A stretch of 64,000 nt of DNA. Origin: Asticcacaulis taihuensis (lineage in GTDB: Bacteria > Pseudomonadota > Alphaproteobacteria > Caulobacterales > Caulobacteraceae). The notes beneath the pieces were generated by a model. It was not told the DNA's origin and ran no database searches. It saw only the letters and a program-made list of their open reading frames with translations. Positions 29,926-39,877 of the stretch are shown piece after piece. The stretch covers positions 186,001-250,000 of the forward strand of contig NZ_FMTS01000006.1 in NCBI RefSeq assembly GCF_900100255.1, in the 5' to 3' direction. Both the position numbers and the translations under genes were made by a program. Each line of letters starts with the position of its first letter. The stretch's first letter is position 1.

Positions 29926-31128
29926 ATGACCGTGACCTTCCCAGACATCGAAGCCGCCGCTGAACGCATCAGGGGACATGTGGTGCGCACACCTTGCGCC
30001 TTTTCCCAGCGCCTCAGCACCGCGGCGAAAACGAAACTATGGCTCAAGGCGGAAAACCAGCAATATACCTCGGCCTTCAAGGAACGCGGTGCGCTCAACA
30101 AGCTGCTGCAACTGAGCGCAGATGAACGCCAGCGCGGTGTCTTCGCGGCCTCCGCCGGCAATCATGCACAAGGGGTGGCCTGGCACGCCCAGCGCCTCGG
30201 CATTCCGGCCACTATCGTCATGCCAATCGGCACCCCTTTCGTGAAGGTGGAAAAGACGCGCGGTTATGGCGCCGAGGTCGTCATCGAGGGCCACAGCTAT
30301 GATGAGGCATCGGTCATCGCGCAGAAGCTCTGCGTCGAAAAAGGCGGGGTCTATGTCCATCCCTTCAATGACGAACAGGTTCTGACCGGCCAGGGCACCC
30401 TGGTCATGGAAATGCTGGAAGACGTGCCGGAACTGGACGTCATCCTGGTGCCGATCGGCGGTGGCGGTCTGATCGCCGGCGCCGCCATTGCCGCCAAGGC
30501 AATGAAACCGTGGATCAAGATCATCGGCGTCGAAGCGGCCATGTTCCCCTCCTTCACCGCCCGCAGGCGTGGGATGCCTATTCCCATGGGCGGTGCCACC
30601 ATCGCCGAGGGCATTGCGGTGAAAGAAGTGGGCGATATCTCGTTCAATCTTGCCAATCCGCTGGTCGATGACGTGCTGATCATCGATGAGGCCGATTTCG
30701 AGCACGCCATCGCCGCCTTGGCCAATATCGAGAAGACCGTCACCGAAGGCGCCGGCGCCGCGGGTCTCGCTGCCGTCATGCGCTATCCGGAGCGCTTCGA
30801 GGGCCTGAATGTCGGTCTAATCCTCTGCGGCGGCAATATCGACCTACGCCTGCTGGCTTCGGTGCTGCAACGCGAACTGGTCCGTGAAAAACGGCTTGTC
30901 ACCTATCGAATCTTAGGCGACGATCGTCCCGGCATGTTGTCGCGCATGGCCGATGTCATCTCGCAAAAGGGCGGGAATATCGTCGATGTGGCGCATAACC
31001 GCCTGGTGCTCGATGTCCCCGCCAAGGGGGCGGAGTTCGACATCATGGTGGAGACGCAAGGCCCGCGTCATGCCTTTGAAATTTCAGAAGCCCTCAGGAG
31101 CACAGGCTATGCCCTCCGTATGGATTAA
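29926..31128 (+). CDS. ilvA: Threonine ammonia-lyase with single ACT domain
   Basis: 400 residues. PLP lysine in YTSAFKERGALNK, phosphate-binding GGGGLIAG, and a C-terminal ACT-like domain from LVTYRILGDDRPGMLSRM. Deaminates threonine to 2-oxobutyrate. The roughly 400-residue length with one ACT unit resembles the short form rather than the 500-residue E. coli IlvA with two. The start is preceded by AAGGGAG. Its 3' end overlaps the first FKBP gene by 20 bases. Confidence 0.93.
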   Translation: MTVTFPDIEAAAERIRGHVVRTPCAFSQRLSTAAKTKLWLKAENQQYTSAFKERGALNKLLQLSADERQRGVFAASAGNHAQGVAWHAQRLGIPATIVMPIGTPFVKVEKTRGYGAEVVIEGHSYDEASVIAQKLCVEKGGVYVHPFNDEQVLTGQGTLVMEMLEDVPELDVILVPIGGGGLIAGAAIAAKAMKPWIKIIGVEAAMFPSFTARRRGMPIPMGGATIAEGIAVKEVGDISFNLANPLVDDVLIIDEADFEHAIAALANIEKTVTEGAGAAGLAAVMRYPERFEGLNVGLILCGGNIDLRLLASVLQRELVREKRLVTYRILGDDRPGMLSRMADVISQKGGNIVDVAHNRLVLDVPAKGAEFDIMVETQGPRHAFEISEALRSTGYALRMD

Positions 31129-31606
31129 AAAGACTTCAATATTCGCTCTCGCCTTCATTCTCACAGCCTGCGGACAAGCCATGGACAAGACAAACGCCCA
31201 AACCATTTCCGAACAGAACCTGCAAAAGGGTCAGGAATTCCTGGCGCAAACCGCCAAGGTGCCGGGTGTCTCGGTGCTCCCTTCCGGCGTGATGTACAAG
31301 ATCGTATCGCGTTCGCCCAATCCGGGGGCGCAGCCGACCGTGGCCGATAACGTCACCATCAATTATGAGGGCAAGCTGCTTGATGGCTCGGTTTTCGACT
31401 CATCCTTCGCCCGTAATGAACCGGCCAATTTCCCGCTCGGCCGTCTGATTTCGGCGTGGCAACAGGTGATCCCACTGATGCATGTCGGTGACGAGATCGT
31501 CCTCTACACACCGCCCACCTCGGCCTATGGCGAGCGCGATCTCGGTGAAATCCCGCCCAACTCGACCCTGATCTTCCGTGTGCAACTGCTGGGGATCAAC
31601 CAGTAA
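31109..31606 (+). CDS. FKBP-type peptidyl-prolyl isomerase lipoprotein 1
   Basis: 165 residues. Lipoprotein signal ALAFILTACG, short linker, then an FKBP domain (VTINYEGKLLDGSVFDSS, LGRLISAWQQVIPLMHVGD, TPPTSAYGERDLGEIPPNSTLIF). The start ATG 31109 lies inside ilvA but has AGGAG eight bases upstream, so translation is coupled to ilvA. Predicted envelope prolyl isomerase. A paralogue follows immediately. Confidence 0.9.
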   Translation: MPSVWIKKTSIFALAFILTACGQAMDKTNAQTISEQNLQKGQEFLAQTAKVPGVSVLPSGVMYKIVSRSPNPGAQPTVADNVTINYEGKLLDGSVFDSSFARNEPANFPLGRLISAWQQVIPLMHVGDEIVLYTPPTSAYGERDLGEIPPNSTLIFRVQLLGINQ

Positions 31607-32121
31607 TGCGCGTCATCTCGATTGCCGCTCTGGCTGGCTTGCTTACTCTGACGGCGTGCGGTCAATCACCTGATACCGCCGCTCAGCTTGAGGCCATGCA
31701 GGCGTCCGCCGATGCCGCTGCGGCGCAGAACCTGAAAGACGGCGAGGCCTATCTGGCCGATATTGCCAAGCAACCGGGCATCATCAAGCTGCCTTCAGGC
31801 GTGATGTACAAGATCGTTTCGCGTGCCGCGACGCCGGGCGCTCAGCCGACGATCAACGACACCGTGAAGATCAATTACGAAGGCAAGCTGTTGAACGGCC
31901 ATGTCTTCGATTCGTCCTATGCCCGCAATCAGCCGGCCGATTTCCCGCTCTCCCGTCTGGTTCCAGCCTGGCAGGAGGTTATTCCGCTGCTGCATGTCGG
32001 CGACGAGGTGATGCTCTATACACCACCGAGCCAGGGCTATGGCGAACGCGACATGGGTGAAATCCCGCCCAATTCGACGTTGATCTTCCGGATTCAGTTG
32101 CTGGGCGTACAGGGAAAATAG
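31606..32121 (+). CDS. FKBP-type peptidyl-prolyl isomerase lipoprotein 2
   Basis: 171 residues, starting at TAATG overlap with the preceding stop. Lipobox LTLTACG, a longer Ala-rich helix (AAQLEAMQASADAAAAQNL), then an FKBP domain nearly the same as the previous one, including INYEGKLLNGHVFDSSYARN and AYGERDMGEIPPNSTLIF-type text (QGYGERDMGEIPPNSTLIF). A tandem duplication with diverged N-terminal parts. A GC-rich hairpin follows. Confidence 0.9.
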   Translation: MRVISIAALAGLLTLTACGQSPDTAAQLEAMQASADAAAAQNLKDGEAYLADIAKQPGIIKLPSGVMYKIVSRAATPGAQPTINDTVKINYEGKLLNGHVFDSSYARNQPADFPLSRLVPAWQEVIPLLHVGDEVMLYTPPSQGYGERDMGEIPPNSTLIFRIQLLGVQGK

Positions 32122-36611: not shown

Positions 36612-37568
36612 TCAGGCGTCCGCGTCGTGTTCTTCACTGAAAACGCCGGCATGGGCCTCTGCCCGGCCTTTCGGATCGGGATGGATCAGGATATCGGCAT
36701 TGGGAAAGATATCGAGCAGGCGCTTTTCGGCGGCGATGATGATCTGGTGCGCCGCATCGAGCGACAGGGTCGGCGCCATTTCGACATGGGCCTGGATCTG
36801 GATATAGGGGCCGGTCAGCCGCGTGCGCAACTGGTGGACCCCCAACACGCGCTCATCATCGGCAATCAGGCCGGCAATGCGCGCCACCTCGTCATCGCCC
36901 AGCGCCTTGTCCATCAGGTGATCGGCGGCCTCCTTCAGCACATTGACCGCGCCCCAGATGAACCAGGCCGCCATCAGAAAGCCAGCCACCGCATCCATGA
37001 AACCGAAGCCGAGCGCCGCCAGCACCACGCCCGCCAGGGCCACGCCGTTACTGACCAGATCGGTGACATAGTGCATCCGATCGGCCGAGACCGCCACCGA
37101 CTGGCTGCTTTTCAGGGCCAGGTTCTGCACGAACACCAGCCCCAGGGTCAGGGCCAGGGACAGGATCAGCACGCCGATAGCCAGGCCGGAGCGCGCGATC
37201 GGCTGCGGATTTTGCAGATTATGAATGCACGACTGCATGACCAGCGCGCCCGAAGCAAAGACAAGCCCCGCCTGAAAAAGGGCGCTGAAGGCTTCGGCCT
37301 TGCCGTGGCCGAAGGGGTGCTCCTTATCCGGCGGCACCTTGGCGTAACGCACAGCGCCGAAGGTGATCAGGGAGGCCAGCAGATCGAGCCCGGAATCGGC
37401 CAGGGAGGCCAGGATGGACTGCGAACCCGACAGGTAAAGCGTCACCCCCTTCATCGCCACCATGACGCAGGCCGTGACGACCGACAGGGTGGTGGCCAGC
37501 CGCACCAGGCTGTCCGGTGACAAATTGTGCAGGCCGGGGCCTTTGGCGTGAGGCGGATTGGAAGTCAT
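36612..37568 (-). CDS. Cation diffusion facilitator (FieF/ZitB-like)
   Basis: 318 residues, six transmembrane segments plus a cytoplasmic C-terminal domain. Metal-site motifs are the DxxxD of SLADSGLDLLAS, HPFGHGKAEAF between helices and HxxxD in MHYVTDLVSNG. Exports zinc, iron or a similar ion by proton exchange; metal selectivity is not predictable by eye. Divergent from the HTH-citrate-synthase gene with a 228-base gap. Confidence 0.93.
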   Translation of the reverse strand: MTSNPPHAKGPGLHNLSPDSLVRLATTLSVVTACVMVAMKGVTLYLSGSQSILASLADSGLDLLASLITFGAVRYAKVPPDKEHPFGHGKAEAFSALFQAGLVFASGALVMQSCIHNLQNPQPIARSGLAIGVLILSLALTLGLVFVQNLALKSSQSVAVSADRMHYVTDLVSNGVALAGVVLAALGFGFMDAVAGFLMAAWFIWGAVNVLKEAADHLMDKALGDDEVARIAGLIADDERVLGVHQLRTRLTGPYIQIQAHVEMAPTLSLDAAHQIIIAAEKRLLDIFPNADILIHPDPKGRAEAHAGVFSEEHDADA

Positions 37569-37712
37569 TGAAATCTGTTAGCACTTCGCCGCCGGTCTGC
37601 AAAGCCGCACGATCGCCCGTTTCCCGCCCTGATTTGGCCCGGAAGCCGTCGGAGGCTGGCAGGCGGCGTTACGATGAAAAAACATGTTAACAAATCGTAA
37701 ATCCACCTTTGA

Positions 37713-37725
37713 CTTTGGCGCAAAG
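37713..37725. promoter_or_regulatory. Palindromic candidate operator
   Basis: CTTTGGCGCAAAG is a 5-3-5 inverted repeat 72 bases before the HTH-citrate-synthase start, overlapping TTGACT (37709-37714), a possible -35 element. A candidate autoregulatory site for the HTH protein or a regulator of the cation exporter. Confidence 0.35.
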
Positions 37726-37796
37726 GGTGTAAACCTCGCAATAATCAATCTTGATATTTGCAGTGGTTTTTGTTTCGTTTTTTGAGCAGGTAGACA

Positions 37797-39014
37797 ATGT
37801 CACGAGTCTGGATCAGCCGCACCGAGGCGCTCAAGCGCCTCGACGTCAAGCCGCAAACCCTCTATGCCTATGTCAGCCGCCAGCGCATCGCCGCCAAGAG
37901 CGACCCCACGCATCCGCGCCTCAGCCTCTATGCGCTTGATGATGTCGAGCGCCTGTCGCGCCGTGCCCCCGGCCGGGTCGCCAGAACAGCCCATGGCGCG
38001 CCCCGCCACCACGCCGCCGCCAGTCTTTCCGGCGGCACCATCACGCGCGGCGAAGCGGCCATCGATACCGAAGTCGCCATTACCCTGCACGGCCATCACT
38101 ATGTCCGCGGCCGCGATCTTGTCACGCTGGCCGAAACGGAAAATTTTGAAAACGTGGCGGCGCTTTTGTGGCGCAGCGACACGCCCAATCCGTTCGGCCC
38201 GCTCAAGCCGCGCCCGGATGTCAACTTCCCCGGCGGGCCGCGCACCCGCGTGCTCTCCATGTTGAGCCGCCGACTGGAAGAGGACGCTCTTTCCGAGATC
38301 AGGGCCGAACGCGACCTCGGCACCGAGGCGGCCAGCCTGATCAACGAAATGTTCGATTCGGTCACCAATGGCGGGCCGCGCCTGTTTTTCCACCAGCGCC
38401 TGGCGCGCGCCTGGAAGGTCTATGACCTGAAGGACGTCGACCTGCTGCGCCGCGCGCTCGTTCTCTCGGCCGATACCAGCCTTGACGAGGCCACCCTGGC
38501 CGTGCGCGTCGCCGCCGCCACCATGGGACCGCTGGCCATTCCGCTGATCGCCGGTTTCGCCACCCTGACCAGCCCGAAACTGGGCGGTCGCATTTCGCGG
38601 GCGGAATCCTATGTCACCCAGGTGCGCCGCCACGGCAATCCGCTGGCCCTGGCCAAGGCGCTGCTCGAAAAAGGCCATGAGCTGCCCGGCTTCGAAAAAG
38701 AACCTTCGCCTTCGGAAACCCTGCGCGCACGCAACCTGATTGAGGCCGCTCCGCACATGGGCGAGGATCTCAAGATGATCCTGCGCGTCGGCGAAGACCT
38801 GACCGGCCAGAGCGTCGGCATGTCGCTCGCCCTGGCCCTGATCGGCCGTCACCTGGACCTGCCGCGGGAAGCGCCGATGACGCTCTATGGTCTTGGCCGC
38901 AGTGCCGGCTGGCTGGCCCACGCCATCGAACAGATGCAGACCGGCGCTTCGCCGAAGGCGCGCCTGCGTTATATCGGCATCCACCCGGAAGCGACCGAAC
39001 CGGTTGATGCATGA
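37797..39014 (+). CDS. Citrate-synthase-like protein with N-terminal HTH
   Basis: 405 residues. Residues 1-60 form a MerR/excisionase-like HTH (WISRTEALKRLDVKPQTLYA then SLYALDDVERLSRR). Residues 80-395 follow the citrate synthase fold, best seen in TLYGLGRSAGWLAHAIEQ near the end. By eye the three catalytic positions are all altered: the usual GPLHGGA reads SPKLGGR, PGFGH reads PGFEK, and NVDF reads SVGM. It is therefore probably not an active citrate synthase but a DNA-binding regulator that uses the fold to sense a metabolite. The alignment is manual. Confidence 0.8.
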   Translation: MSRVWISRTEALKRLDVKPQTLYAYVSRQRIAAKSDPTHPRLSLYALDDVERLSRRAPGRVARTAHGAPRHHAAASLSGGTITRGEAAIDTEVAITLHGHHYVRGRDLVTLAETENFENVAALLWRSDTPNPFGPLKPRPDVNFPGGPRTRVLSMLSRRLEEDALSEIRAERDLGTEAASLINEMFDSVTNGGPRLFFHQRLARAWKVYDLKDVDLLRRALVLSADTSLDEATLAVRVAAATMGPLAIPLIAGFATLTSPKLGGRISRAESYVTQVRRHGNPLALAKALLEKGHELPGFEKEPSPSETLRARNLIEAAPHMGEDLKMILRVGEDLTGQSVGMSLALALIGRHLDLPREAPMTLYGLGRSAGWLAHAIEQMQTGASPKARLRYIGIHPEATEPVDA

Positions 39015-39073: not shown

Positions 39074-39877
39074 ATGCACTATTTACTCGCGGCGCTGCTG
39101 GGTCTGATCGAAGGGCTCACGGAATTCTTGCCTGTCTCTTCCACGGCGCACTTGTTGATCGCCGAAAAGCTGATGGCGTTCAATGATCCGGGCGGCAATT
39201 TCACGGTCATGATCCAGTTGGGCGCGATCCTGGCCGTCGTCGTGCTCTATTTCGCCCGGCTTTGGAAGGCCGTGATCACCCTGCCGACCTCAGCGGACTC
39301 ACGCCGTTTCGCCATCAGCGTTCTGGTGGCGTTTTTTCCGGCGGTGGTGATTGGCGTCATCGTCAAAAAATCGGGCATCTTGGGCGCCCTGTTTGACAAT
39401 GTGCCGCTGATCTGCGGCGCCCTGATCGTCGGCGGCGTGGCCTTGTGGGCGGTCGATAAATACGCGCCGAAGCCGGTGCATCATGATTCCGCCAAACTCG
39501 ACATCAAGACCTCGCTGCTGATCGGCCTGTTCCAGTGCCTGGCCATCATTCCCGGCATGTCGCGTTCGGGCTCGACCCTGATCGGCGCCATGGTGGCAAA
39601 GGTGGACAAGACGGCCGGCGCCGAATTTTCCTTCTTCCTCGCCATCCCGACCATGCTGGGCGCCTTCGTGGTCGAATTCGCCGACAGCCACAAGGAACTG
39701 ACCTCCGATCAATACAGCACCATCGCCATTGGTTTCCTGGTCGCCTTCCTGTCTGCGCTCCTGGTCATCAAGCCTTTCATCAGCTTCGTGCAGAAGCGCG
39801 GTTACGGCTTCTTTGCCCTGTGGCGGGTCGTGGTCGGCGTCGGCGGACTGGTGTGGTGGTTCGGCTTCGCGCACTAA
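39074..39877 (+). CDS. uppP: Undecaprenyl-diphosphatase
   Basis: 267 residues with about eight transmembrane segments. Active-site motifs EGLTEFLPVSSTAHL (residues 13-27) and PGMSRSGSTLIGAM near 155. Recycles undecaprenyl pyrophosphate to the monophosphate carrier needed for peptidoglycan and O-antigen synthesis; also confers bacitracin resistance when overproduced. Located 59 bases after the HTH-citrate-synthase gene, same direction. A strong bidirectional terminator follows. Confidence 0.96.
   Translation: MHYLLAALLGLIEGLTEFLPVSSTAHLLIAEKLMAFNDPGGNFTVMIQLGAILAVVVLYFARLWKAVITLPTSADSRRFAISVLVAFFPAVVIGVIVKKSGILGALFDNVPLICGALIVGGVALWAVDKYAPKPVHHDSAKLDIKTSLLIGLFQCLAIIPGMSRSGSTLIGAMVAKVDKTAGAEFSFFLAIPTMLGAFVVEFADSHKELTSDQYSTIAIGFLVAFLSALLVIKPFISFVQKRGYGFFALWRVVVGVGGLVWWFGFAH

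Follow-up and report, generated by a model that had tools for sequence, protein, structure and literature searches.

Transcription factors that use the fold of a metabolic enzyme as a sensor are already a known kind. In the MocR/GabR regulators, a helix-turn-helix (HTH) is fused to an aminotransferase fold that serves as a sensor and keeps its PLP cofactor. These regulators resemble the gene described here in that an HTH is joined to an enzyme fold put to use in sensing, while they differ in the HTH family, in the enzyme fold, and in the retention of PLP. BzdR combines an HTH with a domain derived from shikimate kinase and responds to the effector benzoyl-CoA, as described in PMC3602430, which also remarks that few experimental approaches exist for how enzymes become transcription factors.

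Among citrate synthases (CS), Berge et al. (2020; PMC7083601) describe citB (CCNA_03757) and citC (CCNA_03758) of Caulobacter crescentus, two genes with consecutive numbers. According to that paper, E. coli gltA is complemented by CitB and not by CitC, CitC is treated only as a putative CS, and Caulobacter CitA has a non-enzymatic role in the cell cycle; its main text contains no mention of helix-turn-helix, excisionase, or (unhyphenated) DNA binding. Among the papers listed in searches of an open-licence library, none describes an HTH-CS fusion as a regulator; subscription papers could hold such a description.

Here we analyze such a fusion gene (HTH-CS) in a 64,000-nucleotide stretch of the Asticcacaulis taihuensis genome, referred to below as the window. 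Quite likely, in our view, the product of this gene is a one-component transcription factor that uses a CS scaffold with a catalytically dead site, regulates its own gene, binds the inverted repeat ATCAATCTTGAT, and probably senses a ligand. With somewhat less confidence, we favor the broader view that HTH-CS proteins are an unrecognized family of transcription factors in the Pseudomonadota that sense through the CS active site, bind RTCAANNTTGAY/TTGAT-N7-ATCAA, and control citB and themselves, and that Asticcacaulis and its kin dropped the enzyme half of the locus and let the catalytic residues of the sensor decay, giving a series from enzyme-like to pure regulator. What would be new is a regulator derived from citrate synthase with a widely conserved operator. 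Moreover, in HTH-CS, unlike in BzdR, living relatives display graded stages between an intact active site and a missing one.

Domain architecture and fold

The gene and its domains are as follows.

37797..39014, plus strand: HTH-citrate synthase gene (HTH-CS, probable CitC ortholog), 405 amino acids, catalytic residues lost
37797..37964, plus strand: winged HTH domain (HTH_17/MerR-like), residues 1-56, with a strongly conserved TLYAYVSR region
37965..38060, plus strand: linker, residues 57-88, pLDDT below 50 (disordered in the model), fast evolving
38061..38990, plus strand: citrate-synthase-derived domain, residues 89-398 (about), from Pfam, AlphaFold2, and Foldseek

A preliminary description of this DNA had read the open reading frame as an N-terminal HTH followed by a citrate synthase remainder, and this architecture is supported. 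The window protein belongs to the CS fold by its Pfam score of 84.7 bits for Citrate_synt (PF00285; cut-off 27). HTH_17 reaches 16.8 bits at residues 6-34, which is under its cut-off of 27; at the level of the family, however, the assignment is convincing from the matches of the relatives, as 21 of 22 members match HTH_17 (best E value 5e-8) and 9 of 22 match MerR_1, both at E<=0.01. The HTH core is strongly conserved across the Pseudomonadota, and the match of the window protein to the HTH-CS family profile, of whose 22 rows it is one, spans positions 1 to 385 of 387.

The structure prediction that had been proposed as a check gave a winged HTH followed by a CS fold. The AlphaFold2 model, built from 18 sequences, has a mean pLDDT of 81.7 (85-91 for residues 1-50) and shows a helix-helix-strand-strand-helix topology, that of a winged HTH, ahead of a helical CS body. 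Foldseek gave 237 PDB matches at E<=0.001. Each of the 50 listed is a citrate synthase or a methylcitrate synthase, with TM scores of 0.58-0.70 and E values as low as 2e-12. Mycobacterium tuberculosis CitA, which is among the best matches in both sequence and fold, has the fold and several structural motifs in common with the window protein; compared with such solved citrate synthases, the window protein adds an HTH and lacks the catalytic triad. A search of the PDB with the HTH profile alone gave one unrelated match (E 0.64) and no solved HTH structure.

Loss of the catalytic residues

The catalytic columns were placed by alignment to the CitA-like and PrpC-like CS of the same genome and to intermediate sequences, using E. 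coli citrate synthase numbers that we take to be equivalents (His264, His305, Asp362, His229, Arg314, Arg387, and Arg407).

38580..38582, plus strand: Leu262, replacing the first catalytic His (E. coli His264), by alignment
38697..38699, plus strand: Lys301, replacing the second catalytic His (His305), by alignment
38823..38825, plus strand: Ser343, replacing the catalytic Asp (Asp362), by alignment

The earlier claim that all three catalytic residues are lost therefore holds, with Leu262, Lys301, and Ser343 in the His/His/Asp columns, and the protein lacks the residues by which an enzyme of this type would be recognized. One detail has to be corrected, as the motif NVDF had been paired with SVGM: the loss of the Asp stands, but the register does not, since PNVDFAL aligns with VGMSLAL and the Asp column falls on Ser343 rather than on the Gly or Met of SVGM, which leaves the conclusion the same. 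Catalytic residues that are intact and merely displaced are ruled out by the alignment through intermediates.

The loss extends to all 25 Asticcacaulis genomes, in which the three columns read LKS (8), LAS (5), MAT (5), LRS (3), LTT (2), MTT (1), and LAT (1), and because it is fixed throughout the genus it is not a matter of chance. In the window protein, Thr227 stands in the column of the substrate His (His229 equivalent). Of the three carboxylate-binding arginines, two are kept as Arg310 and Arg368 (Arg314 and Arg387 equivalents), while Lys387 replaces the third (Arg407 equivalent). Likewise, both of these arginines are kept in 25/25 Asticcacaulis genomes. The ligand site is nevertheless only half kept, because the Arg407 equivalent is replaced in 22/25 genomes and the substrate His in 25/25. 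The kept arginines would favor a carboxylate as ligand.

The HTH-CS family and its plain CS partner

Three genes with a Citrate_synt domain are present in the genome of A. taihuensis, namely the window gene, a CitA-like gene, and a PrpC-like gene that sits in a prpB-prpC-prpD-like order (names read from sequences). A search with the protein P0001 gave matches in 79 of 99 genomes of the taxonomic family; these include fragments, and the second matches found in many genomes are plain CS. With the 22-member profile, matches starting at position <=10 were found in 32 of 289 genomes of the class, and at E<=1e-50 in 38 of 299 genomes of the phylum, all of them spanning the profile and 8 coming from other classes. 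The window protein is a member of a widespread proteobacterial HTH-CS family whose genes often lie divergent from a plain CS.

After removal of identical sequences, and leaving out the window protein, 119 HTH-CS rows were compared, 60 with a plain CS in the fetched stretch (paired) and 59 without (solo). At 60/61 paired loci the two genes are divergent; in the remaining one the open frames are overlong. His/His/Asp is kept in 59/60 paired rows versus 15/59 solo rows, and two of the 15 intact solo rows (L131 and L142) sit on cut contigs, L131 having CitB on another contig. Of the 38 phylum genomes with matches, 18 supplied a further 18 loci, of which 15 read His/His/Asp and three (L265, L257, and L259) do not; one locus, L271, has His at the Arg387 column. 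The family is large, often paired with a second CS, and mostly His/His/Asp, so the catalytic residues were lost secondarily, in some of its lineages.

Of 63 plain CS rows, 59 have His/His/Glu, and the other four are the CitA and PrpC of A. taihuensis, a truncated HTH-CS fragment (L189), and the neighbor at L177. In paired loci such as L052, L056, L160, and others, it is the probable CitB that carries this Glu (NVEF) at the catalytic Asp column. The Glu deserves mention in a partner whose Caulobacter counterpart CitB is reported to be a working citrate synthase (PMC7083601).

The plain-CS/HTH-CS pair is probably Caulobacter citB/citC, judging by adjacency and gene number rather than by the NA1000 sequence itself. 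In particular, citC would be the HTH-CS gene because the adjacent CS pair of the family consists of a plain CS and an HTH-CS, and the plain CS comes first in genome G096. CitC (CCNA_03758) is very likely the positional ortholog of the window gene and an HTH-CS protein, given the divergent plain CS and the same cation-diffusion-facilitator-like (CDF) gene. In contrast to paired members of the CitC type, which keep His/His/Asp in 59/60 rows, Asticcacaulis has lost all three residues together with the partner.

A conserved inverted repeat upstream of HTH-CS genes

The region 37569-37796, which had been named earlier as the place to look for DNA binding, holds an operator-like repeat common to HTH-CS genes across several classes.

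37744..37755, no strand assigned: operator-like inverted repeat ATCAA-TC-TTGAT (ATCAATCTTGAT), 41 bp before the start codon

This is the sole exact copy of ATCAATCTTGAT in the 3.97-Mb genome. When 16 Asticcacaulis upstream regions are aligned, one near-perfect block, TCAA-TC-TTGAT, stands out amid otherwise diverged DNA; it reads ATCAATCTTGAT in most, GTCAATCTTGAT in L040-L042, and has one extra T in L036 and L037. A second, weaker block resembling TGGATTTT lies farther upstream. The repeat is found 35-141 bp before the start codon in 25/25 Asticcacaulis genes, with a two-base spacer in 23 (the copy in L200 ends in C) and a spacer one base longer in 2.

Across the HTH-CS family, the inverted repeat RTCAANNTTGAY occurs a short way ahead of the gene. 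Among distinct upstream regions, 57 of the 60 paired and 30 of the 58 solo ones contain it, against expectations of 0.06 and 0.075 regions, respectively, from 200 Markov resamplings; these counts are not independent, because the genes are related. It is also present in 16 of the 18 further loci, including 6 of 8 from other classes. The repeat is missing from 28 solo regions, and a related degenerate group (L105, L106, L108-L112, and L114) lacks it in 8 of 8 cases.

In 53/61 paired loci, TTGAT-N7-ATCAA is found upstream of HTH-CS and usually overlaps the same core. The extended 23-bp form, TCAANNTTGAT-N7-ATCAA, lies at the HTH-CS locus in 8/8 genomes searched (7 exact, 1 with one mismatch); it has four matches elsewhere, and the reversed control has none. 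Genus g7 includes two genomes with another exact copy of the 23-bp operator candidate (L231:1500-1523 and L237:1500-1523). This copy is placed at the 3' end of an rnhB-like gene, immediately ahead of a gene of 350-362 amino acids and unknown function, a possible second target. In Asticcacaulis, the third half-site is lost or degraded and the core repeat is kept; a search for the three-half-site form with <=2 mismatches matched 22/25 Asticcacaulis genomes, and among the matches listed only that of G394 is at the HTH-CS gene.

In the genome of A. taihuensis, RTCAANNTTGAY occurs at 25 places versus 7 for the reversed control. Four of the 24 places other than that at the window gene were examined by open reading frame context, and no convincing second target was seen among them. 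Two of the four lie inside uvrA-like and GGDEF/EAL-like coding sequences (names read from sequences), and a ATCAATATTGAT pair falls between two convergent gene ends. The gene's own promoter would be the only target supported in this genome. A promoter scan found no promoter. The repeat does not fit an FNR/FixK box, which we take to be TTGAT-N4-ATCAA, by its spacing.

The proposal that the protein is a transcription factor is thus strongly strengthened, as far as sequence goes, by a conserved repeat that forms a putative operator near the gene itself and has a single exact copy in the genome. DNA binding by the window protein is strongly indicated, and we infer that this protein is the one that binds the repeat, whichever the sign of the regulation may be.

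Probable locus history and order of losses

Two neighbors of the window gene serve as synteny markers.

36612..37568, minus strand: cation-diffusion-facilitator-like (CDF) gene, divergent; neighbor of citB in paired relatives; name read from sequence
39074..39877, plus strand: UppP/BacA-like gene, downstream; marker of Asticcacaulis and related degenerate loci; name read from sequence

Paired loci of the taxonomic family often have the order QueG-GST-CDF-citB, followed by the divergent HTH-CS. The CDF gene is found in 24/39 of these loci, with the order and strands of CDF-citB-citC as expected in 23 of the 24. In Asticcacaulis, it is upstream of HTH-CS in 12 of 15 loci (L034-L047 and L049), with a weak, partial match in L037 and none in L040-L042, and UppP is downstream in 13 of the 15, the two without it being L036 and L046, whose sequence ends there. 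All five synteny markers are carried by the intermediates L100-L104, and UppP is also downstream in two paired loci (L133 and L135). At E<=1e-60, a CitB ortholog is found in 42 of the 99 genomes of the taxonomic family and in 0/12 Asticcacaulis genomes; that of A. taihuensis has none either. The order CDF-citB-citC, set against CDF-HTHCS-UppP, suggests that Asticcacaulis lost citB, and the simplest reading would be that its locus is the ancestral paired locus minus citB. In genome G009, a citB/HTH-CS pair with intact residues (L065) coexists with a degenerate solo copy of HTH-CS, located at a CDF/UppP locus (L101), which indicates that duplication or transfer also occurred.

A quick maximum-likelihood tree was built from 98 HTH-CS rows and 4 plain CS after masking of four active-site columns. 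It places Asticcacaulis within a clade of 21 rows (SH-aLRT 100) in which the first His is absent from 21/21. Tyr/His/Asp, Phe/His/Asp, and Leu/His/Asp all occur in this clade, so some of its members still have the other two catalytic residues, and the first His was probably lost first. A separate solo clade, L061, L063, and L151, has all catalytic residues replaced (LSV, SSA, and TSA). Broken residues are seen in 31/45 solo versus 1/53 paired tree rows, a striking association behind which there are few independent events; a test on independent pairs, of which only 3 were usable, was not significant for missing partner versus broken residues.

Selection and alternative explanations

The HTH-CS gene is present in 25/25 Asticcacaulis genomes. 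By the NG86 method, dN/dS over 10 species pairs is 0.025-0.156 for the whole gene, and it is 0.00-0.06 for the HTH versus 0.01-0.15 for the CS domain, the HTH value being the lower in all 10 pairs; those ratios for which dS comes close to 1 or exceeds it are rough. These values show that the gene is not decaying, and together with its presence and the retention of the repeat in 25/25 they rule out reading it as a pseudogene. We therefore regard as scarcely tenable the idea of a duplicate that is heading toward a pseudogene after the loss of citB, to which the missing catalytic residues would lend themselves. In G393, a relative with 97% identity, the match to the gene is split into two pieces near the 3' end (L196/L206), by an assembly error or a real frameshift, and this too would fit decay. 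Very improbable as well is that the protein is still an enzyme of the CS superfamily with displaced or unusual catalytic residues. The retained fold and the purifying selection on the CS domain would be expected of such an enzyme, but within this one genus neither the three catalytic columns nor that of the substrate His keep their residues, and the replacements are so varied that there is no consistent stand-in. Moreover, CitC, by inference an intact member of the family, failed to complement gltA (PMC7083601).

Some other protein might read the repeat. It is conceivable, if unlikely, that the HTH is real, that a different regulator binds the repeat, and that the CS-derived domain works with another citrate synthase, CitA or PrpC, as its non-catalytic partner or its regulator. 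CS subunits oligomerize, CitA-like and PrpC-like genes are still present in the genome, and the mostly Glu-bearing plain CS and Asp-bearing HTH-CS of paired loci would fit a mixed oligomer. The moonlighting of CitA in the Caulobacter cell cycle offers a precedent (PMC7083601). Against this, the repeat accompanies HTH-CS genes in several classes, at paired and many solo loci, and the HTH has a lower dN/dS than the CS domain in 10/10 pairs.

Proposed mechanism and significance

Citrate synthases are dimers that make an open/closed movement, and this movement is our model for how a ligand might act on the HTH-CS transcription factor. The CS-derived domain would form a dimer and probably bind a ligand without catalysis, the candidates being acyl-CoA and carboxylates with two or three carboxyl groups. 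Most likely, by analogy, the dimeric domain holds the HTHs and the ligand alters their geometry, and the winged HTH would then bind ATCAATCTTGAT at 37744-37755, before its own start codon. In the presumed ancestral state, HTH-CS was divergent beside a plain citB with one operator region for both, and because this divergent neighbor shared its operator region, HTH-CS probably controlled an isozyme of citrate synthase. The loss of citB and the decay of the catalytic residues in Asticcacaulis and its close relatives would have left the fold and the HTH in place and, in Asticcacaulis, the core repeat as well. The absence of catalytic residues from solo lineages hints at a change in the ligand, or in how it is handled, after citB was lost.

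If this is true, a regulator made from citrate synthase that directly senses entry into the TCA cycle would be a new type of sensor, and it might also account for the failure of Caulobacter CitC to serve E. coli as a citrate synthase. The family supplies living intermediates (His/His/Asp, then one, two, and three residues lost) for studies of how an enzyme turns into a transcription factor, and the 12-23 bp operator candidate is testable at once.

Elsewhere in the window, at 30953-32121, two adjacent and similar FKBP-like lipoprotein open reading frames of 217 and 171 amino acids (names read from sequences) form an apparent tandem duplication.
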